Shown here piece by piece: positions 4,744-43,210 of a DNA stretch of 64,000 bases. Source of the stretch: Saccharofermentans sp. (GTDB lineage Bacteria; Bacillota; Clostridia; Saccharofermentanales; Saccharofermentanaceae); assembly GCA_024403675.1 (NCBI GenBank), contig JAKSRH010000008.1, forward strand, positions 1 through 64,000, given 5' to 3'. The notes below the pieces were generated by a model. That model was given only the letters and a program-made list of their open reading frames with translations. It was not told the DNA's origin and searched no databases. Both the position numbers and the translations under genes were made by a program. How positions within the stretch are numbered: position 1 is the stretch's first letter; each line of letters begins with the position of its first letter.

Positions 4744-6138
4744 TTATTTTTTCTTTCCAAAAAGTCCAAGAAAACCGCCTTTCTCTGCTTTACCTTCGTC
4801 TCCATCACCCTTGCGAAGGTGTTCTACATAAGACATATCTCTGTATTTACGACGCTTAGTAAGTTTTGGTGTAGTGCCTTCCCCATTAAGTGTCATGTTG
4901 TATGGCATAAGTCTCATTTTGCATGCCATCTGACCGCCTTTGAGATCGTCAATATAACGCACATTAGTGTTCATTAACTGAGGCTTGTAGTAACCTTCTT
5001 TCTTGTAGTGAGCATAATCAATTGGACACATAATCTGAAGGTGATTTGCAAGCTCTGCGAATCGAGTATTAAGTGTTTCTGAGAAGAAATTTCTTTGTCC
5101 GATAAGCTCGTTATTCATGATGAGAATAGTGTCATTTACCTGAGAAGTAATATCGAATTCTTGATCCTTAATTCTTAGATAGTGAGTACCAGCCACGTAG
5201 CAGCGACCGATACCTACAGTTGCCTCTTCCCACTGTGTGAAGTCGTACATAGACTTCATGCGAGCTTCTGTATCCTCGTCACTTTCTACGAAGGAGATAT
5301 TAATAGTCTCATCACCAGTTCCTGCACGACCGAACTGAACATGGCGGTCGATATATGTCTTGTATTTCTGACCTAGCATACCGTACTTAAGGTTACCCAA
5401 ATTAACAAGCAAGTCAGTACCTGTACCAATCTTATCAACAAGATCTACGAAGTCATCCTTCATGCAGCAAATACGGTTACTGTAGCAGGCAAAACAAGCG
5501 GTACATGGAGCGATTTTGTATTCATCAAGATTGAAGCACTCTACGTCGCATCCGCGTGCCTTATATAGATTAGCTACTTTATCTACAGTGGATGCTGCAA
5601 GGCCAGCATTAATAATAGCTACACGGCGCTTCTCAGTAACCTGTGGAACGTTACCTGTTCTTCTGATATCGATAGTTTCCTTAGTGTACTGGAACCAGCG
5701 GTATACCTCTTCGCGGCCTGTCTCTGTAAGCATAGAATCATCTTTAAGAGAAAGGAAACGAAGTCCATTAAGCTTCTCGCCCTCGATCCAACGGGAAACA
5801 TATTTGTGCGCGCCTACATCATAAAGGAAATTACTAGAAGTGATATAAGTGAAGAACTTCTTGTTAATATCATCACCAAGCTTAGCCTTCATACCGGCAG
5901 CGAGCTGGTCTAACATGCTCATCATTTGTGAGTGAACGTTAAGGTGAAAAATACTAGACAAAATCATGATGAGATCTGATTCACATGCGCAGTCTATAAC
6001 ACTTTCTTCGCATGTTACTTTAGTTGTTAAGTGAACAATAAATTCATCATCTGGGTAGTACTTTTTCAAAAAATTAATTGTCTGTAAAGTGAGAGAAGTT
6101 TCTCCCTTAGGACTGCAAGAAAGAACACAAATTTTCAT
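4744..6138 (-). CDS. Double flavodoxin-like / iron-sulfur flavoprotein
   Basis: A 464-residue cytosolic protein with two consecutive flavodoxin-like folds. The first begins with KICVLSCSPKGETS, the loop that binds FMN phosphate in NADPH-dependent FMN reductases. The second begins at about residue 170 with RRVAIINAGLAAST and carries a PCTACFACYSNRICCMKDDF segment. This matches the compact cysteine motif of iron-sulfur flavoproteins (clustered Cys followed by Asp-Asp), so an iron-sulfur cluster next to the second flavin is likely. A Lys/Gly-rich tail (GLFGKKK) ends the protein. I start at the ATG with a GGGGGG site 8 bases upstream, rather than the GTG two codons earlier. The electron donor and acceptor cannot be told. 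Confidence 0.75.
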   Translation of the reverse strand: MKICVLSCSPKGETSLTLQTINFLKKYYPDDEFIVHLTTKVTCEESVIDCACESDLIMILSSIFHLNVHSQMMSMLDQLAAGMKAKLGDDINKKFFTYITSSNFLYDVGAHKYVSRWIEGEKLNGLRFLSLKDDSMLTETGREEVYRWFQYTKETIDIRRTGNVPQVTEKRRVAIINAGLAASTVDKVANLYKARGCDVECFNLDEYKIAPCTACFACYSNRICCMKDDFVDLVDKIGTGTDLLVNLGNLKYGMLGQKYKTYIDRHVQFGRAGTGDETINISFVESDEDTEARMKSMYDFTQWEEATVGIGRCYVAGTHYLRIKDQEFDITSQVNDTILIMNNELIGQRNFFSETLNTRFAELANHLQIMCPIDYAHYKKEGYYKPQLMNTNVRYIDDLKGGQMACKMRLMPYNMTLNGEGTTPKLTKRRKYRDMSYVEHLRKGDGDEGKAEKGGFLGLFGKKK

Positions 6139-6173
6139 AAACACATCCCCCCAAAAGTAATTCCTTTTTGATT

Positions 6174-6207
6174 ATAGCAATGATAGATGATATATATCAT
6201 TTGCTAT
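6174..6207. promoter_or_regulatory. Nested inverted repeat between divergent genes
   Basis: A perfect 14-base palindrome (ATGATATATATCAT, 6187-6200) is enclosed by ATAGCAA and TTGCTAT arms. It sits in the divergent region before the flavoprotein gene (minus) and the receiver gene (plus). It could be an operator. No regulator is assigned. Confidence 0.35.
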
Positions 6208-6268
6208 TTCCCACAATTTACAGAAGATTTATTTTGCACATTCACGAGTGAGGGCCAAAAGGTGATAT

Positions 6269-6274
6269 TATAAT
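6269..6274 (+). promoter_or_regulatory. -10 element (TATAAT)
   Basis: A consensus TATAAT lies 30 bases before the receiver-domain gene. No clear -35 is present at 16-18 bases upstream. Confidence 0.4.
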
Positions 6275-6303
6275 AAGAGATTTTATAGAGTAGGAAGGAC
6301 TTT

Positions 6304-6717
6304 ATGGTTACTATATATATCGTTGGTGATTCCGAGGGTATGAGAGGGATGATAAGTGATGGACTTATTGGTCTTGATTGTGCCGTAGTAGCGGAAGCAG
6401 ATAATGTGGATGCTGTTAATGGTTATAAGCAGTTCACACCAGATATCACATTCCTCGATTTGGCACTTCCTGGCATGAAGGAAATGCAGATATTAAAGAT
6501 GATCAAGAAAGTAAACCCAGATGCATATGTGGTTTGCTATGATTCCACTAACAATAAGAAGGCTGCGCTTGATGCCATGATGAGCGGTGCAAGATATGTG
6601 GTGCCAATTATTATCAAGCTTGAGGGTGGACGACTCATGTCCAATCGCGAAGGTATTCGTGGAGACATGATTGAAGTACTTAATGATTTTAATAAGCATA
6701 AAGGAGAGAGCAAATGA
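6304..6717 (+). CDS. Stand-alone response-regulator receiver domain
   Basis: A 137-residue CheY-like receiver with no output domain. The phosphoacceptor is D52 in TFLDLALPGMKE. Acidic residues D9 and E11 replace the usual adjacent acidic pair. The conserved Lys-Pro after beta strand 5 is not obvious, because the segment reads YVVPIIIKLEGG. Phosphorylation chemistry may therefore be weakened. The ribosome site AGGAAGGA is good. The stop overlaps the start of the acetyltransferase by four bases (ATGA), so the two are translationally coupled. No histidine kinase is adjacent. Confidence 0.75.
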   Translation: MVTIYIVGDSEGMRGMISDGLIGLDCAVVAEADNVDAVNGYKQFTPDITFLDLALPGMKEMQILKMIKKVNPDAYVVCYDSTNNKKAALDAMMSGARYVVPIIIKLEGGRLMSNREGIRGDMIEVLNDFNKHKGESK

Positions 6718-7265
6718 ACCAGAGAGATCAAATGTTAAATGGCGAGCCATTCAATGTAAATTTGGATGATAATCTTCTTAATGACAGAAGAAAGTGTCGT
6801 GAGCTTTGCTTTGAGTATAATCAGATAAGTCCAGCAAATGGTGCTGAGCGTAAGCAGCGTATTCGTGGAATTCTTGGTAGCACAGGAAAAGAAATTAATG
6901 TGGAGCCTCCTTTTTATTGCGATTATGGTTGGAATATTGAAGTAGGTGATGAGTTTAATTCTGAGTGCAATCTTGTTATTCAGGATGCAGGTGGGGTTAC
7001 ATTTGGAGACAATGTTTATATTGGTCCTAACTGCGGTTTTTATACTAAGGCACGTCCTTTTGATGTGGAGCGTCGTAATGAAGGTGTAGAGTTTGCGCGT
7101 CCTATCAAGGTTGGTAATAACGTTTGCTTTGGAGCAAATGTTCATGTATTCCAGGGCGTTACTATCGGTGATGGTGCAATGATTCTCGGAGGATCTATCG
7201 TTACTGATGATGTACCAGCCGGTGCAGTGGTTTCAGGTAATCCTTGTAAGCCTATTGGTGAGTAA
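6714..7265 (+). CDS. Maltose/galactoside O-acetyltransferase family protein, catalytic His replaced
   Basis: A 183-residue member of the LacA/Maa/NodL hexapeptide-repeat acetyltransferases. It has an N-terminal helical cap (MLNGEPF, RRKCRELCFEYN) and a left-handed beta-helix with I/V-G-x-x-x repeats, ending in the typical GNPCKPIG. In the family the catalytic His sits in a T-x-T-H-P segment. Here the aligned segment is YTKARPFD and the residue is Arg114. The usual W-I-G-G after the linker is CFGAN. Acetyl transfer may be lost or altered, and a sequencing error is unlikely to explain both changes. It overlaps the receiver gene and precedes a beta-glucosidase, suggesting a sugar-related operon. 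Confidence 0.8.
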   Translation: MNQRDQMLNGEPFNVNLDDNLLNDRRKCRELCFEYNQISPANGAERKQRIRGILGSTGKEINVEPPFYCDYGWNIEVGDEFNSECNLVIQDAGGVTFGDNVYIGPNCGFYTKARPFDVERRNEGVEFARPIKVGNNVCFGANVHVFQGVTIGDGAMILGGSIVTDDVPAGAVVSGNPCKPIGE

Positions 7266-7286
7266 AAAGTACTTAGGGGGTTATTT

Positions 7287-8633
7287 ATGTCTTTTTCAAA
7301 AGATTTTATTTGGGGAGCAGCGGCAGCAGCCTATCAGGTAGAGGGCGCTTGGAATGAGGACGGTAAAGGTCCTAATATCTGGGATGTAACTGCTAAATAT
7401 AATGAGCACATTAAGCATAGTGAGACAGGTGAAGTATCTGCTGATCACTATCATCACATGAAGGAAGATGTGGCTCTTATGAAGGAGATTGGTCTCAAGG
7501 CTTATCGTTTCTCCATAAGCTGGACACGTGTCCTTCCAGATGGTATTGGCAAGGTAAATGAGAAGGGATTGAAGTTCTATTCTGACCTTGTAGATGAGCT
7601 TCTCGCTAACGGTATCGAGCCGCTTGTTACTATCTATCACTGGGATTATCCATATGCACTTGAGCGTATTGGTGGATGGCGTAATAAGGACTCTTCTGAT
7701 TGGTTCCTCGAGTACACAAAGGTTATCGTAGACGCACTTTCTGATCGTGTTAAGTATTGGATGACATTAAATGAGCCACAGTGTTCACTTGGTTGTGGTT
7801 ACTTGGTGGGTGCTTTCGCGCCATTCCAGAAGTGCTCCACACCAGAGCTCCTCGAAATGGGTGCTAACATGCTCCTTGCTCATGGCAAGGCTGTTAAGTA
7901 TATTCGTGAGCACGCTAAGCAGGAGTCAAAGATTAGTATGGCACCTTATGCTGACTGCTATGCTCCTGAGAACGATTCTGAGGAAGCTTTCGAGAAGGCT
8001 TATAAAGAGTCATTTGTAAGTGAGGGCAGTCAGTTCCTTTTCTCCATGACTTATTGGTCTGATCCAATTTACCTTGGACATTACCCAGAGGACTTCATGG
8101 AGCAGTATGGTGACATGGTTCCTAAGTTCACTGATGAAGAGTGGGCTATGATTTCTGCACCTTTGGATTTCTATGGTGTTAATATCTACCGCGTAGGTTC
8201 TGGCAATGCTAGTCGTGGTGAATATGGTCGTGATTGGTATCAGGGACGTCCTCATACAGGTATTGGTTGGGCAGTAACTCCAGAGGCTTTGTACTGGGCT
8301 CCTAAGATGCTTTATAAGCGTTATGGTCTTCCTGTTATGATTACTGAAAATGGTATGAGTGAGCACGACTGGGTATCTCTTGATGGCAAGGTTCATGATA
8401 CATATAGAATCGACTTCACACATCGTTACCTTAGAGAGCTTAAGAAGGTATCTGAGGAGATCCCTCTTATTGGTTATATGCATTGGTCTGTAATGGATAA
8501 CTACGAGTGGGCTGACGGCTATGATGAGAGATTTGGTCTCATTTATGTTGATTACCAGACACAGAAGCGTACCATAAAGGACTCTGCATACTGGTACAAG
8601 AACGTTATCGAGAGTAACGGAGCTAATTTGTAA
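7287..8633 (+). CDS. bglA: Glycoside hydrolase family 1 beta-glucosidase
   Basis: A 448-residue cytosolic enzyme of the usual GH1 length that hydrolyses beta-linked glucosides such as cellobiose. Visible GH1 landmarks are the N-terminal FIWGAAAAAYQVEGAW, the RFSISWTRVLP motif, the acid/base Glu163 in TLNEP and the nucleophile Glu354 in ITENG, followed by Y-D-F-type MDNYEWADGY near the end. No signal peptide is present, and it lacks the phosphate-binding signature of 6-phospho-beta-glucosidases as far as I can tell, so free cellobiose or aryl glucosides are more likely substrates. The ribosome site AGGGGG is clear. It follows the acetyltransferase by 21 bases and ends at a terminator. Confidence 0.92.
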   Translation: MSFSKDFIWGAAAAAYQVEGAWNEDGKGPNIWDVTAKYNEHIKHSETGEVSADHYHHMKEDVALMKEIGLKAYRFSISWTRVLPDGIGKVNEKGLKFYSDLVDELLANGIEPLVTIYHWDYPYALERIGGWRNKDSSDWFLEYTKVIVDALSDRVKYWMTLNEPQCSLGCGYLVGAFAPFQKCSTPELLEMGANMLLAHGKAVKYIREHAKQESKISMAPYADCYAPENDSEEAFEKAYKESFVSEGSQFLFSMTYWSDPIYLGHYPEDFMEQYGDMVPKFTDEEWAMISAPLDFYGVNIYRVGSGNASRGEYGRDWYQGRPHTGIGWAVTPEALYWAPKMLYKRYGLPVMITENGMSEHDWVSLDGKVHDTYRIDFTHRYLRELKKVSEEIPLIGYMHWSVMDNYEWADGYDERFGLIYVDYQTQKRTIKDSAYWYKNVIESNGANL

Positions 8634-8642
8634 AAATATAAT

Positions 8643-8681
8643 GACATTATTCTCTCTAGCTGGGAGAATAATGTCTTTTTT
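8643..8681 (+). terminator. Intrinsic terminator after beta-glucosidase
   Basis: A 12-base-pair stem (GACATTATTCTC with its complement, 9-base loop) is followed by six T. Confidence 0.9.
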
Positions 8682-8719
8682 AAAAGTATAATTAATTTTG
8701 GAAAGTGGGCCGATTATAA

Positions 8720-9559
8720 ATGGAACATATTGATCAGCAGTTTCTAACTGGAGAAAGAGCTCTCTTCAGAGGGAAGGATCTCCTAATTACAAACACAGTA
8801 TTTGATGACGGGGAGTCACCATTAAAGCATAGCGAGAATATCGTAGCAGATGGATGTCTTTTCCGTTGGAAGTACCCATTCTGGTATAGCAAAAACATTG
8901 AGATAAAAAACAGTGTGTTGTTTGAAATGGCAAGAGCGGGTATCTGGTACACAGATAATGTGGTTGTAAAAGACACTATGATCGAGGCTCCAAAGGAATT
9001 TCGCAAGTGTAATGGGGTAACACTTGATAACGTATCAATTCCTAATGCAGCCGAGACTTTCTGGAATTGTAACAATGTTACACTCAATAAAGTGACTGCC
9101 AAGGGCGATTATTTTGCCATGGGTTGCACTGATGTGAAGCTTAAAGATTTTGAGCTTTATGGAAACTATTCATTTGATGGTGCTCGTAATGTCGAAGCAG
9201 ATAATTGCAAGTTCTTGTCCAAAGATTGTTTCTGGAATGCAGATAATATTGTCATTCGCAATTCCTTTATTTCAGGCGAATATTTCGGCTGGAATTCTAA
9301 GAACATTATATTGATTGACTGTACAGTAGAGAGCCTTCAGGGCATGTGCTTTATAGAGAATCTTGTAATGAAAAACTGCAAAATTATAAATACGACTTTG
9401 GCATTTGAATATTCTACTGTAGACATTGAATCTACTACTAGAATCGATAGTGTTAAGAATCCAATATCAGGAGTTATTAAAGCTCCTAGTATAGGAGAAT
9501 TGATTCTAGAGGCGGATTTAATTGATCCTAGTAAGACATCAATTATAGTGGAAGGCTAA
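8720..9559 (+). CDS. DUF3737 family protein (predicted beta-helix)
   Basis: A 279-residue protein of the DUF3737 family. It consists of short repeats of the form N-x-x-V/I-x-D/N-x-x-F, with W-Y-S-K-N-I and N-C-N-N-V-T turns. This pattern fits a right-handed parallel beta-helix like pectate-lyase-type folds. No signal peptide or membrane segment is present, so it is probably cytosolic. It lies 26 bases upstream of the first of three zinc-ribbon membrane proteins. The family has no established biochemical role that I know of. Confidence 0.8.
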   Translation: MEHIDQQFLTGERALFRGKDLLITNTVFDDGESPLKHSENIVADGCLFRWKYPFWYSKNIEIKNSVLFEMARAGIWYTDNVVVKDTMIEAPKEFRKCNGVTLDNVSIPNAAETFWNCNNVTLNKVTAKGDYFAMGCTDVKLKDFELYGNYSFDGARNVEADNCKFLSKDCFWNADNIVIRNSFISGEYFGWNSKNIILIDCTVESLQGMCFIENLVMKNCKIINTTLAFEYSTVDIESTTRIDSVKNPISGVIKAPSIGELILEADLIDPSKTSIIVEG

Positions 9560-9585
9560 GTCGTAAAAGTCTGTTTGGGGGCAAC

Positions 9586-11097
9586 ATGGCAATTTGGGAT
9601 CAGAAGGAAGAAGATTTAATTACTACAGAATCAGCAGATTCACATAAGTGTATATCTTGTGGTGGTAATTTAAGATTTAGTATCAAGGAAGGCATGCTTG
9701 TGTGTCTTTCTTGTGGTAACAGATTTTATCCAGAATCTTTTGAGATTAATGAGATGCTCTCTGAGCGTTTGGAGCTTGATATAAAGCCTGAAGATTTTGA
9801 GAATAAAGATGAAGTAGATAAGTTTAAAGTTGAGCGTGAAGAGAAGCAGGAAATCGTTTGTAATGCATGCGGCGCCGTAGTAGTTACTGACAAGAATACA
9901 ATGTCAACTTTCTGTGCTTTCTGTGGTTCGCCAGCAATTGTTGGTCGTCGTCTTCAAAAGCAGTTTAGACCAGACTATATTATTCCATTTAAGTTAACTC
10001 ATCAGCAGGCAGAGGATAATATTCGTGCTTGGGCAAAAGATCGCTCTTTCTTGCCAGGTTCTTTTAACACAAAGGCGACTTATAGCAAGATTACTGGTTT
10101 ATATGTGCCTTGCTGGCTTGTGGATGCCGATTGTAACATGAACGTTGGCGGTGTTGGTATTAAGAAGGACCCTACAATGATGGGAGAGGAACTTCTTTAC
10201 TATAACGTAAGACGTAAGGGCCTCTTTAAGATGAAGAATGTTCCATTTGATGGCACTAAGCGTATTAATAGTAAAATGATGGAGGCATTGGAGCCATTTG
10301 ATTACAAGGAGATGGTGCCTTTCGTTGACGGTTACTTACCTGGCTTTTATGCGGAGCGCTATGACCAGACTCCTAAGGATATGGTTTTCCGTATCGCAGA
10401 TCGTTTCAGAGATTATATGTATGAGGTTGGCTCTACCCTTGTTAAAAGTGGTGGATATAGAGAATTCCATCTTGAGGATGATTTATCCAAGCCAGAAAAC
10501 TACAAGTGTCACTATGCGTTAGTTCCAGTATGGCTTCTAAGCTTTAATTACAAAGGCTCAATTTACCGAGTAGGAGTAAATGGTCAGACAGGCGAGGTAG
10601 CAGGCAAGACTCCTGAAAGCGATATTAAGCGTGGACTATGGAAGTTCAAAGAAGGCCTTAAGGCGTATAGTTTGCTTCTATTAATCGCGACAATTGTTGG
10701 GTTTCTTATCGGAACATTTCTCTATCTAAATGCAAGCACTAGAAATTACGCATCAAGCTGGCTTTTCTGTTGTATTTTCTCTTGTGTATTTTGTTATGCA
10801 CTTGTTCTTTGTAATGCGCTGGGAATAAGATTTATGTCTGATAATGCAGTTGTTAATCTTTTTGAGAAACTGGTAATTCAAAGCAAGGTAAAAATGGAAG
10901 AGCAGGGTAATCAGATTAATAAAATGGACGAAATGCCAGACGTATATGAGTATCTAGACAAGACATGGAAGACACAAATCGAGGAGACAGATACTATAGC
11001 AGGCCATGGTATCGGACATGGTATTACACAGGATACAGGAACTCTTGTAAAGCAAGCGATATTTGAGTCAGCAGTAAATTCTGTTCGAAGATATTAA
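9586..11097 (+). CDS. Zinc-ribbon membrane protein, paralogue 1 of 3
   Basis: A 503-residue protein. It opens with MAIWDQKEED, then a first ribbon with CISCGG and CLSCG and a second with CNACG and CAFCG. A conserved soluble region follows with YVPCWLVD, VPFDGTK and YAERYDQ, then NGQTGEVAGKTP and two hydrophobic segments at about 360-378 and 388-412. The architecture matches TFIIB-type zinc-ribbon proteins that are often misnamed as PriA-like, and whose function is unknown. It is the most divergent of the three copies. Its Gly/His-rich tail (HGIGHGIT) is not shared. The ribosome site TTGGGGG precedes the ATG. Confidence 0.8.
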   Translation: MAIWDQKEEDLITTESADSHKCISCGGNLRFSIKEGMLVCLSCGNRFYPESFEINEMLSERLELDIKPEDFENKDEVDKFKVEREEKQEIVCNACGAVVVTDKNTMSTFCAFCGSPAIVGRRLQKQFRPDYIIPFKLTHQQAEDNIRAWAKDRSFLPGSFNTKATYSKITGLYVPCWLVDADCNMNVGGVGIKKDPTMMGEELLYYNVRRKGLFKMKNVPFDGTKRINSKMMEALEPFDYKEMVPFVDGYLPGFYAERYDQTPKDMVFRIADRFRDYMYEVGSTLVKSGGYREFHLEDDLSKPENYKCHYALVPVWLLSFNYKGSIYRVGVNGQTGEVAGKTPESDIKRGLWKFKEGLKAYSLLLLIATIVGFLIGTFLYLNASTRNYASSWLFCCIFSCVFCYALVLCNALGIRFMSDNAVVNLFEKLVIQSKVKMEEQGNQINKMDEMPDVYEYLDKTWKTQIEETDTIAGHGIGHGITQDTGTLVKQAIFESAVNSVRRY

Positions 11098-34358: not shown

Positions 34359-36197
34359 ATGATTATTGATGTTTCAGGATATACAAATGTCGGTCTGGTA
34401 AGAAGCACTAACCAAGATTCTGTTCTTGTTCGTGCAGAGAAGAACTACGGATTATTTGTAGTAGCAGATGGAATGGGTGGCCATAGTGGCGGTGATTATG
34501 CTAGCCAGACTATAATCAGAACTCTTGCTTCATGGTGGGATGGTGGAGCATACAAAAAGGTTTCAGATATTGAAGGTCTTGCTTCTGAGTGTAAACAGCA
34601 GCTCGAGACAGTAAGTAATGAAATTCATAGCCAGTTCAAGCAGGCTGGACTTGTAGGTGGTAGTACAGTTGTAGTAGTTATCGTAAACGAGACACAGTTT
34701 GCCACACTTACTTTGGGAGATAGTCATATCTATCGTCTTTGTAGCGGTAACATGATTCCATTAAGTGTAGATGATGTATGGGAGAACTTACCATCTACTC
34801 GTGAATCCATGACAGATGAAGAAATCGCTAATGATTCTAGAAAAGGAAAGCTCACTGCAGCTATTGGTGCTGTCGAGAGTGTAGATGTTCATGTCCAGAT
34901 TTTTGAGCAGGGCGAAGAAGAATACTTGATGCTTTGTTCTGACGGCATCTACAAGTATATCGGTGCAGATGAGTTGTCACAGGGATTCGCATCTGGTGCT
35001 ATCAATGCTTCTGCTAAGGAGCTTTCTGATATGCTTTCTCAGTATGTTTTGGCAAATGGTGCAAGTGATAATTTTACAGTAGCTATTTGTCGCACAAAGA
35101 AATCCAGTGGTCTTGGTTACGTACCTTCCGCTAATCATTCAGAGGTGGTTACTGAGGCTAATTGTGATATTAAAATTGCATCTGAGATTTATAACAAGGT
35201 TGAAATTTTTAAGTCTAAGCTAACAAATGTATCTACTGAAGAATCTGTAGAGACTCCAGTAGCCGAGACCGCGTCAGAGCCAGCAGAGGAGAAGCCAGTT
35301 TCTACACCAGTCGCTACTCCTGTAGCAACTGAAGAGAAGAAACCAACTGACTCAAAGATAGCAAATTACTTAGAATTAATTAAACAGAAAAACGCTATCC
35401 TTATTATGATTATTGCTGCACTTGTAATCATGGCAATAATTATCGGTGCGGTTATCGCAAATAAGAGTAAGAAGAAAAAACCAACTATAGAAGAGACTGA
35501 TGTAGTAGAGTCAACAGAAGCTATAGAGGAGACTACAGAGGCTACTATCGAGACAACTGTACCTGTAGAGACATTTAGTACAGTCAACGATAATATCCCA
35601 CTTATCATTACTGGTAATCCAGATGATGTTAATGCTACAGCTCTCGAGTCTACTTGTAAGTATTTTGGTGACTTTGATGGTGATGGTATAACAGATGGAA
35701 TCAAAGTAAGTTTTGCTCAGACAGATTTTGGTGTGGAGCCAATTCTTACACTTTTGGATTCTAATGGTGAGGATATTGTCGGTACAAATCGTCCACTTAA
35801 GGAGATCGTAAATCTTCAGTATAGTGAGAGCGATATTGTTGGCTTGTTGTCCACATCAATTGGTGGAAGAACTACATTGTTTATGACTGTTGTTAATCAT
35901 GATGGCAAAGATGTTCTTGTAGCATACTATGCAGGTCTTGGCCTTAATGGAAACAAGATTGTATCTGTTATTGGACGTGTGGAGACAAGTTATAACTTAA
36001 TCAATATGTATACAAATATTGGTGGTTCAATGCAGGTAATGTTCCCAATTCCAGGTGCTAACCCAGAACTTAGTCCAGTAGATCAGATGTGCAACCAGCA
36101 TCTTGGTATGGATTATGACAATGTTGGGGAAGAGGAAATGAATTCTGGTGTATGGGCAATGGGTACACAGATTGTTGGAATAGTTTATAATGAATGA
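34359..36197 (+). CDS. Membrane PP2C phosphatase with outside Ca-loop-like domain
   Basis: A 612-residue protein. Residues 1-240 are a PP2C Ser/Thr phosphatase with RSTNQDS (D20), VADGMGGHSGG (D37), GDSHIYRL, LCSDGIYKYI and GASDNFTVAI, all metal-binding Asp present. A Pro/Thr linker and one membrane helix (about 345-366) with a KSKKKKP stop follow. The outside part starts with a Thr/Glu-rich stretch and then a domain holding DFDGDGITDG (D438 to D446), a calcium-loop form seen in FG-GAP and dockerin-like modules. It should reverse the action of the kinase at 38685. I start at the ATG 10 bases after AAAGG. Confidence 0.88.
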   Translation: MIIDVSGYTNVGLVRSTNQDSVLVRAEKNYGLFVVADGMGGHSGGDYASQTIIRTLASWWDGGAYKKVSDIEGLASECKQQLETVSNEIHSQFKQAGLVGGSTVVVVIVNETQFATLTLGDSHIYRLCSGNMIPLSVDDVWENLPSTRESMTDEEIANDSRKGKLTAAIGAVESVDVHVQIFEQGEEEYLMLCSDGIYKYIGADELSQGFASGAINASAKELSDMLSQYVLANGASDNFTVAICRTKKSSGLGYVPSANHSEVVTEANCDIKIASEIYNKVEIFKSKLTNVSTEESVETPVAETASEPAEEKPVSTPVATPVATEEKKPTDSKIANYLELIKQKNAILIMIIAALVIMAIIIGAVIANKSKKKKPTIEETDVVESTEAIEETTEATIETTVPVETFSTVNDNIPLIITGNPDDVNATALESTCKYFGDFDGDGITDGIKVSFAQTDFGVEPILTLLDSNGEDIVGTNRPLKEIVNLQYSESDIVGLLSTSIGGRTTLFMTVVNHDGKDVLVAYYAGLGLNGNKIVSVIGRVETSYNLINMYTNIGGSMQVMFPIPGANPELSPVDQMCNQHLGMDYDNVGEEEMNSGVWAMGTQIVGIVYNE

Positions 36198-36292
36198 GTT
36201 TAATATTTCTGTAGGGATTGAACCTTATGGAAAGATAAACTGTCTTATAAGTATAAAAGCGAAATAACTTAATGATAAAGGAGAGGTTAGTT

Positions 36293-36940
36293 ATGAGTAT
36301 GTATCAGTTAGTTAATTTGGCAGGAATATTGGCAAGACGTCGTAGAAGTAGTGGCATAGATTCAGATACAATCATGCTCATTGCAGGTATTGCTGTAGCA
36401 GTTATCGTTGTAATTGTTATTGTTGCAATCGTAGCTTCCAAGAAGAAGTCTAAGAAGAAGCAGGCAGTTCAGCCTGTTGAATATCAGGGATATGCAGAAC
36501 CAGTGGTTAACACACCAGTAGCTCCAATTGTAGATATTCCAATGGCCCCTGTAGTAAACACACCAGTAGTGGAAACTCCAGTTGCTCCAGTTGCTCCAGT
36601 AGTAGAGACACCTGCTGCTCCAGTAGTTGAAGAAGCTCCTAAGAAGACATATGTAAAACTTGTTAATGTACAGAATGGTGCTACATACGAGGCTCCTATG
36701 GATGAGCAGGTAACTATTGGTAAGCGTGACTGCACAATTAACATTGCTGATGATAATTCTATTTCTGGTAAGCACTGTCAGATTTATATGTATGAGACAA
36801 ACTACGTTCTTGCTGACATGGAATCCACAAACGGTACAAAGCTTAATGATTATAAGATTGATGTACCTGTTTTCATTGAGAATGGAAGCATTCTTGGCAT
36901 CGGTAAGCAGAAGTTTACTGTAACTTTTGAGCAGAAGTAA
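36293..36940 (+). CDS. Membrane-anchored FHA domain protein
   Basis: A 215-residue protein. A short N-terminal part with an Arg cluster is followed by one membrane helix (about 23-44), a basic KKSKKK stretch (inside face), a Pro/Val/Ala repeat linker of P-V-V-x-T-P type, and a C-terminal FHA domain (about 118-213). FHA core residues are present: TIGKRD, ISGKHCQIYM and STNGT. FHA domains bind phosphothreonine with a preferred residue three places later. It lies 95 bases after the phosphatase and 25 before a protein with five T-E-L/I-L motifs, its probable ligand. The AAAGGAGAGG site fixes the start. Confidence 0.9.
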   Translation: MSMYQLVNLAGILARRRRSSGIDSDTIMLIAGIAVAVIVVIVIVAIVASKKKSKKKQAVQPVEYQGYAEPVVNTPVAPIVDIPMAPVVNTPVVETPVAPVAPVVETPAAPVVEEAPKKTYVKLVNVQNGATYEAPMDEQVTIGKRDCTINIADDNSISGKHCQIYMYETNYVLADMESTNGTKLNDYKIDVPVFIENGSILGIGKQKFTVTFEQK

Positions 36941-36965
36941 TTGCTTATAGGTTTTGGAGGCAAAA

Positions 36966-38672
36966 ATGATTACTTGTAGTAAGTGTGGTGCTCAGAATAC
37001 AGATGATTCTTTATTCTGCAGCACATGTGGAAATAAAATTGAAGTTGTAACTTATATTCCATGTCCTAATTGTGGTAATGGTGTAAAGGCAGATGCTCGT
37101 TTCTGTGCTAAGTGCGGAAATGCAATGGGTAGCAATTTGAATATGTTATTTACTCCTCAGGCGGGAGCAGCTCCTGCTTCAGAACCAGTTAATGAGACTC
37201 CAGTTAGTGAGACTCCAGCTGAGCCTGTGGTTGATCCATTTGCTGCATTTATGGAAGCTACTAATAATGAGCCATATGAAGCTACAGAATTGTTGGTTGA
37301 GCCAGATCCTGCTCCGGTAGTTGAGCCTGAGCCTATCGTTGAGCCTGAACCTATCGTGGAGCCTGAGCCAATCGTAGAGCCTGAGCCTATCGTTGAAGCA
37401 GAGCCAGTTGCAGAGCCGGTAGTTGAGCCAGAACCAATCATGGAGCCAGTTGTAGAAGCTGCTCCAGAATATGAAGCTACTGAACTTTTGGTAGCACCAG
37501 AAGTTACAGCTCCTGTAGCTACTCCAGTTGATGATGCTACAGAGATTCTTACAGAAGCTGAAGCTGTAGCTACTCCAGTTCAGGAGACTACAGACGCTGT
37601 TGTAGATCCATTTGCTGCATATGAGAATATACCAGATAATTCTCAGCCAGCTTATGAGGCTACTGAGCTTTTAACAGAGGCAGATTCTGCACCTCAGGTA
37701 GACCCTTTTGCTGCTTTTATGAATACTACTGCTACACCTATTAACGAAGATAAGACAGAACTTCTTATAGATGATCAGCCTGCTTATGTACCACCAGTAG
37801 ATATTGGAAATAATGGTGAAGACTATAGCTATGCTCAGGCAGCAGTACCTACTCAGAATTATCAGGAAGAGATTCCTGTCGAGAAGAAAAACAAGAAGAA
37901 AAAGAAGAGCAAGGCACCAGTAGTTATTATTGTTATCCTTATTATTCTTGCAGTTCTTGGTGGCGGCGGATATTTCGCTTATTCTCAGGGGTATCTTGAT
38001 GGCCCTATCGCTACTATAAAGGAAAAACTTGGTATGGATGCTGATGATGAATCGGAAGATGGCGAAGAGGAAGAATTGTCTTTTGACAATATCGAATTGC
38101 CAGCAATTCCAGATCAGTACTATACAGGTTCAGAGGTAATTCCTGCACTTAACATGAAGCTTGGTGAAGATGAGCTCAAGGAAGGTGAAGATTACACTGT
38201 TGAGTGCACAAACAATATCTTTGGTGGAACAGCTACAATTACTATCACTGGTACAGGTGATATTAAGGGTTCAGCTAGTGGTGAGTTTAAGATTATCTAT
38301 GGTAGTGATATCGCTGATGATCCAAATAACGCTACTATGGTTAACTACGTTATTAACTTGTATACACAGTTCTATCATCGTAATCCTACTGCTTCTGAAG
38401 TAGTTAATGATTGTGCAAATATCAGAAGCGAAAACTTTGATATGAATGCATATTTCTTAGGCTTTATTGATAACTTTGATGGTACTACACGTAGTACAGA
38501 GGATTTTGCTTCTAATTGCCTCTATCTTGGAATTATGGGACATGAAGGTGATCCAGATGGAATTCAGTCATGGGGTGGTTACGCAGACGCAAATGGTATC
38601 CATGCTACAGGCGAGCTTTTCCTCTCTGATCCTAACGTAAATGCAGCTATTAGAGAGAATCTTGGTATTTAA
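36966..38672 (+). CDS. Zinc-ribbon protein with repeated Thr motifs, membrane helix and DUF4214-like outside domain
   Basis: A 568-residue protein. Two zinc ribbons (CSKCG...CSTCG and CPNCG...CAKCG) occupy residues 4-50. A long acidic Pro-rich linker (about 60-310) includes E-P-E-P-I-V repeats and three DPFAAF/Y motifs. It also carries five threonines in ATELL/ATEIL/KTELL contexts: T107, T172, T192, T233 and T264. A lysine block precedes one membrane helix (about 320-340). The outside part has a beta-rich domain and then a DUF4214-like helical domain (about 455-565). The threonines, all with Leu at +3, look like kinase sites read by the FHA protein. Confidence 0.8.
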   Translation: MITCSKCGAQNTDDSLFCSTCGNKIEVVTYIPCPNCGNGVKADARFCAKCGNAMGSNLNMLFTPQAGAAPASEPVNETPVSETPAEPVVDPFAAFMEATNNEPYEATELLVEPDPAPVVEPEPIVEPEPIVEPEPIVEPEPIVEAEPVAEPVVEPEPIMEPVVEAAPEYEATELLVAPEVTAPVATPVDDATEILTEAEAVATPVQETTDAVVDPFAAYENIPDNSQPAYEATELLTEADSAPQVDPFAAFMNTTATPINEDKTELLIDDQPAYVPPVDIGNNGEDYSYAQAAVPTQNYQEEIPVEKKNKKKKKSKAPVVIIVILIILAVLGGGGYFAYSQGYLDGPIATIKEKLGMDADDESEDGEEEELSFDNIELPAIPDQYYTGSEVIPALNMKLGEDELKEGEDYTVECTNNIFGGTATITITGTGDIKGSASGEFKIIYGSDIADDPNNATMVNYVINLYTQFYHRNPTASEVVNDCANIRSENFDMNAYFLGFIDNFDGTTRSTEDFASNCLYLGIMGHEGDPDGIQSWGGYADANGIHATGELFLSDPNVNAAIRENLGI

Positions 38673-38684
38673 TCGGAAGTAACT

Positions 38685-40724
38685 ATGAGTTTATTTACAC
38701 AATATTCTGTAGAAGAGTTTCAAAGAGCGTATACAGTTAAGGAACAAATCGGTAAAGGTGGTGCCGGCGTCGTATTCCGTGCGCAGCATAACCGCCTCCT
38801 TAAGGACGTAGTAATTAAAAAGCTCAATGATGTTATTAAGGATGATGGTCAGCAAAGAGCTGAGGTTGATATCCTTAAGAACTTGAGACATCCTTATTTG
38901 CCTCAGGTATACGACTTTTTCACAATGAATGGAAGTTGTTTTACGGTAATGGAGTTTATTAAAGGCTCCTCCATTAAGCAACTAATTGACCAGAATATGC
39001 GTTTTTCTGAGCAGCAGATTATTAAGTATTCTAGACAGCTCAGTGAAGTTGTAAGTTATCTTCATTCTCAGGCTTTGCCAGTTATTCACGGTGATATTAA
39101 GCCTGATAATATTATCATCACACCTGAGGATAATATTTGTCTTATTGATTTTAATATTTCATCTGTATCCACTGGTGGCGTGGCGTGGACATTTGGTTGT
39201 ACACGTGGTTATAGTGCGCCTGAGCAGGTTAGCGCTTACGAAAGACTTAAGGCTATTGGTGGTAACCCAAGCAATTCTCAGGGTGTTCGTATCGATAAGA
39301 GAAGTGACGTTTTTAGTATCGGTGCGACAATGTACCATATGTACGCAGGAGAGCGTCTTGATAAAAGTTCTGGCATTAAGGTATCCGATGTTCAAAGTGA
39401 TGCTCTCGTAAATATTATAAATACTGCCCTTAGAAGCAATCCAAATGAGCGTTATCAGGACGCTGGGGAGCTTTATGATGCAATTTGTCAGATTAATAAT
39501 AAAGATAATGAAATTAAGAGAATTAGCGTTGCCTTTGGTGTAATTAGATTTCTTTTTGCACTCCTAGCCATGGTAGGTATTTTGCTCATAATTTATGGTT
39601 ACACATCCCTTGATGGTGAGCGTAATGAGCGCTATTACGACTATATTGGCGAAATGGAAGATGCACGTGAAGACGGAGATGAAGATGCTCTTCTAAAGTA
39701 CTATAAACTTGCTATTTCTATGCAGCCAGAAAATGCACAGGCATATTATCAGGTGGCAGCTTATTATTACGATATTGGTGATTACTATAAGGCTATCGAT
39801 TATATTCATGGTGAAGTTCCAAGTGATTCTTATTTGACTGAGGATGACTATATTGCAGGTATTAATGATATTTATGCAGAGTGCTTCTTTGAGGAACAGA
39901 ACTATGAAGATGCCTGCGATGCATGGGAAACTGCTATCAAGTATAACGATGAGGTTCCTGCATACTACCGTAATCTCGCAGTATCTTATACTTTGTGTGG
40001 AAATGCTGATGATGCCAGGGATATCCTTGATAAAGCAGATAAGTATGGCATTTCTGATGATGGTATTTATCTCATTAGAGGTGAGATTAATAATGCTGAA
40101 GGCGAATACGAGGACGCAATCGATGACTTCGAAGAGTGTATCGATATAACTGAAGATGATAGAACTATGTACCTCGCCTATGTAGGATATAGTGAAGCTA
40201 TTACTGGTCTTGCTGAAGGCGAAGCTAATGCTAATACTTACTATGAGCAGAATATAGCACTTCTTAATCGTGGTGCATCTCAGGTATCTGATCAGTATAG
40301 ACTTTCCCTTCTTAAGAGAACGGCTGATATTGCTAGAATCGCATATCTAGCGAATCAGGACAATGAAGTATACGCAAATGAGTTCCTCTTAGACGCTACA
40401 TCTGCATATTCTCAGATCGAGAATACTGGTTGGATGAATGAAGTAGAGTATTACAACTACATTGATCTATATATTAAGACTAAGAATTTTGATAAGGCTA
40501 TGGAAATTCAGCTCAGAATGGATAATGCATTTGAGGAAAGTCTTTTGGCTGCTGAAAGTCATGCATTCCTCGAAAGACAGATTCAGCTTGATAAGCCTGT
40601 AGACCAGCGCGATTATACAGAGTTTTGTAATTATTATCGAAGAGCTCAGAGCATTGCCGATACAAATGGAACTAGTGATGAGAGACTTGTAAGACTCGCT
40701 GAGATCTATAGAGAAGTAGTTTAA
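38685..40724 (+). CDS. Ser/Thr protein kinase with membrane helix and outside TPR domain
   Basis: A 679-residue Hanks-type kinase. The kinase domain (about 1-270) has GKGGAGVVF (23-31), the ATP-binding K45 and the catalytic loop HGDIKPDN with D137. The metal motif is DFN (155-157) instead of DFG, and the loop is HGD instead of HRD, so activation may not need activation-loop phosphorylation. The catalytic Lys, Asp, Asn and metal Asp are all kept, so it should be active. One membrane helix (about 284-307) leads to an outside region with about six TPR-like units (YYKLAISMQPENAQAYYQVAAYYYDIGDY). It is 12 bases after the zinc-ribbon gene, its probable substrate. Confidence 0.9.
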   Translation: MSLFTQYSVEEFQRAYTVKEQIGKGGAGVVFRAQHNRLLKDVVIKKLNDVIKDDGQQRAEVDILKNLRHPYLPQVYDFFTMNGSCFTVMEFIKGSSIKQLIDQNMRFSEQQIIKYSRQLSEVVSYLHSQALPVIHGDIKPDNIIITPEDNICLIDFNISSVSTGGVAWTFGCTRGYSAPEQVSAYERLKAIGGNPSNSQGVRIDKRSDVFSIGATMYHMYAGERLDKSSGIKVSDVQSDALVNIINTALRSNPNERYQDAGELYDAICQINNKDNEIKRISVAFGVIRFLFALLAMVGILLIIYGYTSLDGERNERYYDYIGEMEDAREDGDEDALLKYYKLAISMQPENAQAYYQVAAYYYDIGDYYKAIDYIHGEVPSDSYLTEDDYIAGINDIYAECFFEEQNYEDACDAWETAIKYNDEVPAYYRNLAVSYTLCGNADDARDILDKADKYGISDDGIYLIRGEINNAEGEYEDAIDDFEECIDITEDDRTMYLAYVGYSEAITGLAEGEANANTYYEQNIALLNRGASQVSDQYRLSLLKRTADIARIAYLANQDNEVYANEFLLDATSAYSQIENTGWMNEVEYYNYIDLYIKTKNFDKAMEIQLRMDNAFEESLLAAESHAFLERQIQLDKPVDQRDYTEFCNYYRRAQSIADTNGTSDERLVRLAEIYREVV

Positions 40725-40743
40725 TCATTCGGAGGATACTTGA

Positions 40744-40881
40744 ATGGAAATCTATAGGGGTTATATAATTATGGCGATAGGAGTGGCTGTTGTTTTAGTA
40801 GCTATTATTGGCTTTATTGCAATGACACTTGTATATCACAAGAAGAAAGACAGACTCATGAATGGTACATATGAGGAGTAA
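40744..40881 (+). CDS. 45-residue single-helix membrane peptide
   Basis: A small gene with a strong ribosome site (CGGAGGA) between the kinase and the TPR protein. The product begins MEIYRGYIIMAIG, has one membrane helix (about 8-30) and ends in a basic, polar tail (HKKKDRLMNGTYEE) that should face the cytosol. Gaps of 19 and 5 bases to its neighbours place it inside the operon. Small membrane peptides often adjust a partner kinase or transporter; here the kinase is an obvious candidate, but this is inference. No known family is recognised. Confidence 0.7.
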   Translation: MEIYRGYIIMAIGVAVVLVAIIGFIAMTLVYHKKKDRLMNGTYEE

Positions 40882-40886
40882 AGGAT

Positions 40887-43151
40887 ATGAGTATAAAGAA
40901 TTTTTTTACAAATAAAGCTAACCGTAAAAAGGTAATTATTGCTTCTTCCGCACTTTCACTCGTTCTTGTAGTGGGTATTGGAGCAACAGTATTCGCTGTA
41001 TCACAGAATACTCGTTCCAAGAGATATAGCAATATGATTAAGACAGCTGAGAAGGAGCTCGATAAGAAGGATTATGACGAGGCTATTTCTATGTATGAGG
41101 AAGCTATCGAACTTAATCCACAGGATCCAGATGCTTATCTTGGACTTGTTGATCTCTATTTGGAGACTGGTGATATTGATAAGGCATTTGAAGTTCTTGA
41201 CCAGGCTGTAGAGAATGTTCCAGAGGAGCAGCAAGAAGAGATTCAGGAAGCAATTCAGGAAGTTGAAGCTGTTTCTAGTGCAACAGTAGCACCTGCTGTA
41301 ACTGAGCCAACTGGTGGAAATAGCAATGTAACTGAGACCACAGCTGCTCCAACAGAGACAACAGTTGTAGAAACAGAGCCAATTGTAGAGACAGACCCAG
41401 TAGTAGAGACTGATCCAGTAGTAGAGACTGACCCAGTAGTAGAGACTGAACCAGTAGCAGAGACAGATCCTGCTGTGGAGACTGAGCCTACAGAAACTAC
41501 TATCCCAGAAGATATTACTATTTCTGGACAGTATGATGTAGCTACAGAAGATATCATTATTTCTTATCTTACTAACTATGCAGATGACTTTGGTGGTTAT
41601 TCTGTAATCGGTAAGGTGTTTGGTAGCGAAGCATTTGAGAATATTGGTGGTGAGATTTGTCCTCCTGCACTTAGCGAGCTTCAGGCAGCTAAGAGTGGAG
41701 TTGCTACTTATGTTCTTTATGATGTTGACGCTGATGATGAACTCGAGGCAATCGTACTCTTCTATAACACAGATGTTGAAAGTGTAGATAATGAGATTAC
41801 AGCAGTTCTCGAAGCAGCTGTAATTGATGTTGTGAATAATGAAGCAGTTGTTTCTGATTCCACAGACCTCTGGACAATGGATAAGAGTAATGGCGAAGTA
41901 GTTATTTACTTCATGGACGGCACAATCGTAGTTGAGCAGGGTTCAGCTTTGATACCATACACACCAACAGTTGATGGCGTTTTAGTTGGAGAATTTGAAG
42001 AAGAGCCTGAGATGGATGTAGAAGATGTTATCTTCTGTGATCAGATTGCTTATGAGACTATCGATTCAGATGATCAGCTTGAGATGGCATATTCTTCAAT
42101 TAGTATGGATTATGCAGATACAGCTGCTATTGGAAATGTTTATGAGAGATTCAATAATCCTGCAGCATATGTAGATGGTAATACTATCGTATTCGATAAT
42201 GAGCGTTATCCAGAACTTCAGGCTTCTGTAAACGAGGCTATTATGGATCTCGATGAAGATGCAAAGATTGTTATCACTCGTTCTGATATTGAGGCTTTCA
42301 GCTTTGTTGTCATTAATGATGTTTATACAGGTTATAACTTTAACCCAATTACTGGTGAAGAGTACACAGCTGAGATGCTTGGTATCGAAGATGTGATGAC
42401 AAGTTTCGTAATGCTCCCAGTTGATCATTATGCGATGATTTTCAATGACGATGATTTCCCATATATAGGTAGCTTTGATGCTATTTCAGACGTTTATAAT
42501 TATGTTATTGACGTAACTGACTTCGGTGTATTCATTTATGAATGTGGTGAGTCAAACCTTGCAACTTTTGAAATCGTTGAAGGTTCACTTGTAGTAAGAA
42601 CAAACATTACTCCTGAGATTGATGGTTTTACACTTGATATGGCAGATATTAACCTTGATACACTTAAGGTAATGCTCGCAGGTGTAAATGGTCATAATTA
42701 TCTTTATGTTATTGGCGAAGCTAATGATGGTTCTGAGGTAATTGTTTACACTGTTGATTTGGTAGTTGAGTCAGATGCTGAGGAATACGATATTTCTACT
42801 TCATCTTTTGAATCTAATCCATTTGGTTTGATGTGTTATACACCTAGCATGTTAAAGTCACAGAGTAATTACTTTGGTAAGGACAATGCTACAGCTTATT
42901 ATCACATTAGTCGTGATGGTCAGATTGCTCTTGATAGCATTTGGGTAAGTAGTGATGAGCCAGTAGAGGCTACAACTGTTGCTGATATCAATGTGGCTAA
43001 CGCACTTGATTACTCTGTAGTTGAGGTGCCAGCAGATACTACAATTACATTGCTTTTCGAGCAGTTTAATAGAATTTACTTTATGGTAAATGATAACGCA
43101 TATTTCGTACCAGTATCTGGTGATTATAGTGAGATGTTTGCTCTTAACTAA
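40887..43151 (+). CDS. Outside TPR protein with Thr/Glu-rich linker
   Basis: A 754-residue protein. A short basic N-terminus and one membrane helix (about 16-37) work as a signal anchor. Two TPR units follow (about 50-115: YDEAISMYEEAIELNPQDPDAY), then a low-complexity linker with repeated V-V-E-T-D/E-P units (about 135-210). A large acidic C-terminal region of about 540 residues, which I cannot assign, completes it. The whole part after the helix should be outside. The TPRs resemble those on the outside of the kinase, so both may bind one another or a common partner. It is the last gene of the operon; a terminator follows. Confidence 0.75.
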   Translation: MSIKNFFTNKANRKKVIIASSALSLVLVVGIGATVFAVSQNTRSKRYSNMIKTAEKELDKKDYDEAISMYEEAIELNPQDPDAYLGLVDLYLETGDIDKAFEVLDQAVENVPEEQQEEIQEAIQEVEAVSSATVAPAVTEPTGGNSNVTETTAAPTETTVVETEPIVETDPVVETDPVVETDPVVETEPVAETDPAVETEPTETTIPEDITISGQYDVATEDIIISYLTNYADDFGGYSVIGKVFGSEAFENIGGEICPPALSELQAAKSGVATYVLYDVDADDELEAIVLFYNTDVESVDNEITAVLEAAVIDVVNNEAVVSDSTDLWTMDKSNGEVVIYFMDGTIVVEQGSALIPYTPTVDGVLVGEFEEEPEMDVEDVIFCDQIAYETIDSDDQLEMAYSSISMDYADTAAIGNVYERFNNPAAYVDGNTIVFDNERYPELQASVNEAIMDLDEDAKIVITRSDIEAFSFVVINDVYTGYNFNPITGEEYTAEMLGIEDVMTSFVMLPVDHYAMIFNDDDFPYIGSFDAISDVYNYVIDVTDFGVFIYECGESNLATFEIVEGSLVVRTNITPEIDGFTLDMADINLDTLKVMLAGVNGHNYLYVIGEANDGSEVIVYTVDLVVESDAEEYDISTSSFESNPFGLMCYTPSMLKSQSNYFGKDNATAYYHISRDGQIALDSIWVSSDEPVEATTVADINVANALDYSVVEVPADTTITLLFEQFNRIYFMVNDNAYFVPVSGDYSEMFALN

Positions 43152-43173
43152 GACTTAGTAAAAGTAATAAACA

Positions 43174-43210
43174 AAATGCCTTCTGAATTTCAAATTCAGG
43201 AGGCATTTTT
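43174..43210 (+). terminator. Intrinsic terminator of the phospho-signalling operon
   Basis: A 15-base-pair stem (AAATGCCTTCTGAAT, one G-T pair) ends in a T run. Confidence 0.9.

Follow-up and report, generated by a model that had tools for sequence, protein, structure and literature searches.

A candidate trans-envelope kinase/phosphatase/FHA switch with a threonine motif array on a zinc-ribbon membrane protein of Saccharofermentans

The stretch of DNA analysed here, called the window, comprises 64,000 nucleotides from Saccharofermentans sp. (GenBank assembly GCA_024403675.1, contig JAKSRH010000008.1, positions 1 to 64,000 of the forward strand) and contains, at 34359-43151, six genes for a PP2C-type phosphatase, an FHA protein, a double zinc-ribbon (ZnR) membrane protein, a Ser/Thr kinase, a 45-residue peptide and a TPR protein. 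We propose, with rather better than an even chance of being right, that this operon is a trans-envelope kinase/phosphatase/FHA switch which would act via a multivalent phosphothreonine array on the ZnR protein. The proposal starts from what is observed in the operon and its relatives: the gene set, intact catalytic residues and most FHA ligand-contact residues, a conserved neighbourhood, and a threonine motif whose occurrence is non-random. Furthermore, the same row of sites is found on other proteins of related operons, which suggests that it is an interchangeable docking part. Compared loci, genomes and contigs are labelled L, G and C, respectively, G000 being the genome of the window.

Results

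The initial annotation had pointed to five threonine motifs in the linker of the ZnR protein, and T-E-(L/I)-L was indeed seen at all five residues (Table 1). The ZnR linker of the nearest operon, L058, likewise has five motifs (TEIL, TEIL, TEIL, TELL and TELL), with one position turned over on each side. Identity between the two linkers is 16/20 in the motif cores and 103/193 in the remaining linker, a comparison that is suggestive only. At the DNA level, the pattern (D/E)ATE(L/I) has five matches per genome in the two genomes concerned, four of the five being inside the ZnR gene.

In 53 cytoplasmic linkers of at least 10 residues from the compared loci, the acidic-Thr-x-hydrophobic motif occurs 73 times, whereas composition-preserving shuffles predict 21.3 (and no more than 37 in any of 2000), and its Ser version occurs 15 times against 19.6 expected. 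Because the motif was chosen after viewing the first loci, it was also counted in a held-out set of 11 further loci, where the Thr motif was found 11 times against 2.8 expected (p < 0.0005) and the Ser version once against 4.0; the inserts of L116 and L117 were missed by the parser, and their inclusion would only add to the held-out count. In the extracytoplasmic Thr-rich stalks, the strict motif is not above chance (5 versus 4.3 expected). FHA domains favour phosphothreonine over phosphoserine, and a Thr-only enrichment is therefore what a kinase-FHA docking array would predict.

The Thr motif recurs non-randomly, on host proteins that are interchangeable. Some of the hosts are kinases: the loop between helices EF and F, which is short in the window kinase, is replaced in related kinases by inserts of 43-175 residues, most of them bearing Thr motifs. 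These inserts include five copies of EDATEVE in L071, five of DDRTQID type in L075, at least five of DRTELF type in L068, DATEVV in L065, two TELL in L070, TEIL and TEVI in L064, TELI in L090, and arrays in L116 and L117. Elsewhere the motifs lie in the linker ahead of an FHA domain, as in L059 (DDETVIL), L060 (DDATVIL), L068 (a DRTEFI array), L069, L070, L079, L082 and L083. A third location, found in loci of the type VII secretion system (T7SS) type, is the cytoplasmic tail of a TPR protein with a transmembrane (TM) helix, where DEGTVLL is repeated seven times in L118 and L119, and a zinc ribbon is followed by seven DDQTVLL in L120. The FHA proteins of the two Coprobacillaceae loci (L059:897-1415 and L060:1067-1618) are small and soluble, with paired DD(E/A)TVIL and DDEPT(M/I)(V/L)L motifs directly before the FHA domain, like the OdhI/GarA intramolecular switch. 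The membrane TPR proteins (L118:10126-12237, L119:5437-7554 and L120:11144-13294) have seven near-identical D-(E/D)-x-T-V-L-L repeats.

In a tree of kinase cores with the insert removed, the clade of the window and L058 is nested with L064, L090 and L065. The kinases of the latter three hold the array in the insert, whereas in the window and L058 the loop of 22 residues is motif-free and the array is on the ZnR protein. Given that the window/L058 clade nests among insert-array kinases, the simplest reading is that the docking array moved from the kinase to the ZnR protein. In a label test on the same tree, insert arrays need at least two changes, and their clustering is not significant.

The window kinase has intact catalytic residues (K45, E60, D137, N142 and D155, in HGD and DFN motifs). 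Its AlphaFold model has a predicted local distance difference test score (pLDDT) of 86, and the kinase domain of the model superimposes on PknB with Z 26.5 over 239 residues (root-mean-square deviation 2.7); the matches in the PDB were taken up by kinase domains. Identity with the PASTA kinases PrkC/PknB was considered and rejected, as the outside part is TPR with no PASTA repeats and the score against NF033483 is 120.8, with a cut-off of 450.

The expectation that the genes stay together in relatives was borne out by the neighbourhood check. The operon is present whole in L058, on contig C18 of a Saccharofermentans metagenome-assembled genome from horse faeces (G074), with a kinase identity of 68% and the same flanks as in the window, namely Na/Ca-exchanger-like and MATE genes upstream and patatin-like and ATP-binding cassette (ABC) transporter genes downstream. 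A rearranged set in G019 (L047/L064) consists of genes for a DUF4214-leucine-rich repeat protein, zinc ribbon, FHA, PP2C lacking a TM helix, kinase, 45-residue peptide, TPR and a further zinc-ribbon protein, whose outside part is weakly like a solute-binding protein (SBP_bac_1, E 0.0028). G067 (L090) contains PP2C, kinase, a 46-residue peptide, TPR, zinc ribbon and DUF4214, with no FHA gene found near the set. The system is present in 4 of 115 family genomes, in 4 of 188 order genomes (all of one genus), and in 13 of 391 class genomes including G000. It is a real and conserved, but patchy, accessory signalling operon.

In 24 loci where 5 kb or more is available on either side of the kinase, the window included, an FHA gene is near in 19, a TM-TPR gene in 15, PP2C in 12, a small single-helix gene next to the kinase also in 12 and a zinc-ribbon membrane protein in 9, counts which describe neighbourhood rather than an ascertainment-free frequency because the loci were retrieved via the kinase. 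Related kinases lie beside EssC-like ATPases (L067, L073, L078, L118 and L120) or Tad genes (L065, L075 and L077). The description of the locus as self-contained is therefore half right: the window set stands without T7SS genes having been found, but relatives of the module adjoin T7SS ATPases or Tad pili.

All six open reading frames and their domains were recovered where the initial annotation had placed them, on one strand between the MATE gene and a terminator-like stem, with intergenic gaps of 95, 25, 12, 19 and 5 bases in gene order (Table 1). A ribosome-binding site, AAAGGAGAGG, precedes the ATG of the FHA gene at 36293. No riboswitch or other RNA control element was matched by an Rfam search of 30-48 kb, and a promoter scan was uninformative (33 found versus 34 expected by chance).

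Table 1. Features of the operon in the window
Feature	Coordinates	Strand	Support
PP2C-type phosphatase (aa 1-250), acidic linker, TM 347-365, C-terminal DFDGDG-containing domain	34359..36197	+	Pfam PP2C_2 5.6e-14
FHA protein: short N-terminus, TM, Pro/Val-rich linker, C-terminal FHA domain	36293..36940	+	Pfam FHA 3e-13
Double zinc-ribbon (ZnR) protein: disordered linker with 5 Thr motifs, TM 319-337, immunoglobulin (Ig)-like and DUF4214-like domain	36966..38672	+	Pfam DZR 2.8e-11
Thr motif 1, EATELL, T107	37278..37295	+	
Thr motif 2, EATELL, T172	37473..37490	+	
Thr motif 3, DATEIL, T192	37533..37550	+	
Thr motif 4, EATELL, T233	37656..37673	+	
Thr motif 5, DKTELL, T264	37749..37766	+	
Ser/Thr kinase (HGD/DFN), TM 285-303, TPR superhelix outside	38685..40724	+	Pkinase 1.4e-41
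Short 22-aa loop, helix EF to helix F of kinase	39228..39293	+	AlphaFold: low-confidence residues 193-197 between helices 179-190 and 205-221
45-aa single-helix peptide, basic C-terminal tail	40744..40881	+	Relatives: 44-57 aa single-TM genes beside kinase
TPR protein: TM helix, TPR (aa 39-115), E/T-rich stalk, outside domain with FG-GAP-like motif	40887..43151	+	TPR_19 6.6e-14
Intrinsic-terminator-like hairpin, operon end	43173..43209	+	17-pair stem with T tail

Hydrophobicity-based topology gives one helix in each of the six proteins. The earlier view that in five of them this helix divides the signalling part from another domain stands only in part: it separates no two domains in the FHA and TPR proteins, as only about 25 and 15 residues, respectively, lie opposite the main domain, and the outside placement of the C-terminal part of PP2C is uncertain by the positive-inside rule, since the helix is followed by KSKKKK (aa 347-375 region), which contradicts that rule if the DFDGDG domain is outside. 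The metal-site residues of PP2C (D37, D121, D195 and D237) are intact and invariant in four homologues; against the Stp1/IreP model NF033484 it scores 144.8 bits (E 2.8e-42), under the curated cut-off of 230 bits. The FHA domain retains the ligand contacts S159, H162, N181 and G182. DUF6382 was not found in the FHA protein with Pfam, a TM helix and linker being present instead. The genome of the window (G000) has just three FHA genes in 2.07 Mb. Contig C20 of this genome carries a Tad-type locus (4996-9891, L051) with a CpaF-like ATPase, TadB/C-like proteins and a Flp-like small protein, in which a DUF6382-FHA protein is last and no kinase is adjacent.

The DUF4214 match of the window ZnR protein (E 0.0078) is under the Pfam cut-off, and that of the homologous gene in G067 reaches E 3.9e-19. 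In G067, two separate genes encode the zinc ribbon and the Ig/DUF4214 part, which hints, in the manner of a Rosetta stone, that the two act together. Away from kinases, contig C45 (L052:4128-5798) of G000 encodes a zinc-ribbon/TM/TPR protein that also has carboxypeptidase-regulatory-like domains; it is a composite of the window ZnR and TPR proteins. The FG-GAP-like motifs in homologues of the TPR protein are under the cut-off, and the predicted structure of its outside domain (pLDDT 42, from four sequences) is too poor for use. A by-eye likeness of this outside part to an RsiV/PdaC-type domain was dropped, as no domain of this kind was matched in Pfam at E up to 10, and there was no PDB match.

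Discussion

In the mechanism we propose, the outside TPR and DUF4214-like domains would receive an envelope or surface cue, and the 45-residue helix may be a kinase partner which gates the kinase. The kinase would then phosphorylate the ZnR protein at the five TE(L/I)L threonines of its cytoplasmic linker, the membrane-anchored FHA protein would bind the phosphorylated array multivalently, and this binding would cluster the zinc-ribbon/DUF4214 surface protein and its partners, until PP2C strips the phosphates from the array. The switch would probably serve to assemble or position a surface complex, through clustering or display of the zinc-ribbon/DUF4214 protein, rather than to control transcription. 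Phosphorylation, FHA binding, clustering, signal and output are what we infer from the observed features. For the central step, already put forward in the initial annotation, in which the zinc-ribbon threonines would be phosphorylated by the kinase and then recognised by the FHA protein, the recurrence of the motif and its changes of host protein provide strong comparative support.

A broader reading can be put only just on the probable side. In the membrane kinases of Clostridia with HGD/HSD and DFN motifs, the FHA-ligand Thr array may be an interchangeable part, housed in the EF-F insert, the FHA linker, or a zinc-ribbon or TPR membrane protein. Its place would determine which membrane protein is clustered by the FHA reader, in stand-alone surface systems as well as in those of the T7SS and Tad-pilus type. 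The window operon would then be a case in which the array has moved from the kinase to a zinc-ribbon surface protein.

Several observations weigh against the proposed switch. The motif was defined after inspection of the first set of loci, and a loose Thr pattern is mildly high in the outside stalks as well (13 versus 7.9, p 0.037). Owing to shared ancestry and the growth of arrays by duplication, the motif counts are not independent, and the p values are not counts of events. The FHA domain has GK instead of GR at one ligand contact, and the nearest complete copy of the operon comes from one species only. Furthermore, we infer the transfer of function to the ZnR protein, since in comparators from beyond the genus the array is carried by kinase, FHA or TPR proteins.

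Known systems offer both likenesses and differences. The initial annotation knew of no described system with this gene set, a claim that has to be corrected, as the T7SSe/T7SSj loci described by Garrett et al. 2024 (PMC11217815) contain a membrane kinase (of TPR type in T7SSj), PP2C, a DUF6382-FHA protein and a single-helix protein; its central writer-reader step, on the other hand, has been strengthened. The paper suggests control of these systems by Thr phosphorylation, and an array is not mentioned in its searched passages. The window operon resembles these loci (TsxD/F/J/K) in having in one locus a membrane kinase with an outside helical/TPR domain, PP2C, an FHA protein and a small single-helix protein, and differs in that its FHA protein has its own TM helix and no DUF6382 and in that a zinc-ribbon/DUF4214 membrane protein bears the Thr array. 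TsxC, the FHA-containing EssC-type ATPase, was not found in the 89% complete assembly of G000, where the sole FtsK/SpoIIIE match is a 1000-aa frame on contig C1 and none lies near the operon; the WXG100 protein (TsxA) was found in none of six genus genomes, including three relatives with the operon. Since neither was found and the FHA protein lacks DUF6382, we reject membership of the operon in T7SSe/T7SSj and keep the likeness of working. In another genome of the genus, G007, L048:6158-17019 encodes a different HRD/DFG-type kinase, PP2C, DUF6382-FHA, a 160-aa membrane protein with ETTVL motifs and a 2088-aa Ig-like surface protein; this locus is T7SSe-like, and WXG100 was not found in G007. 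Beyond the T7SS paper, no literature was found on the window gene set or on FHA ligand arrays in clostridial kinases.

Like the window operon, the PpkA-PppA-Fha system of the type VI secretion system (T6SS) (PMC5995506, PMC12607579) encodes together a membrane kinase, PP2C and FHA reader that form a reversible trans-envelope switch with phospho-dependent assembly; in one T6SS, PpkA has been found to form condensates and to phosphorylate Fha (PMC12607579). Unlike it, the window operon is clostridial, has its array on a separate zinc-ribbon membrane protein and lacks T6SS context; no T6SS structural genes were seen among the proteins scanned, although no T6SS model was searched. In PknG-GarA/OdhI, autophosphorylated Thr sites of PknG recruit the FHA protein GarA (PMC8546545). 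In this kinase-TPR protein an FHA domain binds acidic Thr sites, as is predicted from motifs for the window, but the system is soluble and serves metabolic control, with few sites, located in the kinase N-terminus or beside the FHA domain and not in an EF/F insert or zinc-ribbon protein. In the Mycobacterium ABC transporter Rv1747, which is of FHA-linker type, FHA domains bind phosphothreonines of a disordered linker; there, array and FHA are in one polypeptide, and no zinc ribbon is present.

Among other explanations, the operon might be a regulatory module that has become detached from a T7SSe/T7SSj-like secretion system or Tad pilus and acts in trans on such a machine elsewhere in the genome. 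Related kinases do adjoin EssC-like ATPases and Tad genes in several loci, and the own genome has the Tad locus with a DUF6382-FHA protein on C20; however, with no WXG100 protein found in six genus genomes, a single FtsK/SpoIIIE-type ATPase in the own genome that has the size of the chromosome-partition kind, and a window FHA protein devoid of DUF6382, we regard this as unlikely. It is very improbable that the operon encodes a general envelope-stress pair of PrkC/Stp type, with the FHA and zinc-ribbon proteins as unrelated passengers and the Thr motifs as accidents of composition. The resemblance of the kinase and PP2C domains to PknB and Stp1 fits such a pair, but a separate, stronger Pkinase match lies on contig C34, and both the co-conservation in loci and the Thr versus Ser statistics speak against passengers and accident. 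The faintest chance is given to an array that tunes transcription, in which the zinc ribbon would contact RNA polymerase or DNA and FHA binding would release it or sequester it at the membrane. Binding to nucleic acids or to the transcription machinery is common among zinc ribbons; the operon, however, has no DNA-binding domain or regulator gene, and such zinc ribbons are common on membrane proteins of the compared loci.

In summary, an unannotated operon of Saccharofermentans becomes a directly testable candidate phospho-switch, for which writer, eraser and reader are named and five sites predicted. Little is known of the substrates on which clostridial Ser/Thr kinases act physiologically, and acidic-T-x-hydrophobic arrays may serve as a sequence rule for finding them. 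If the array truly changes its host protein, this would explain how one kinase family came to control surface machines of different kinds, and it would provide a candidate mechanism for the recently described regulatory parts of T7SSe/T7SSj.

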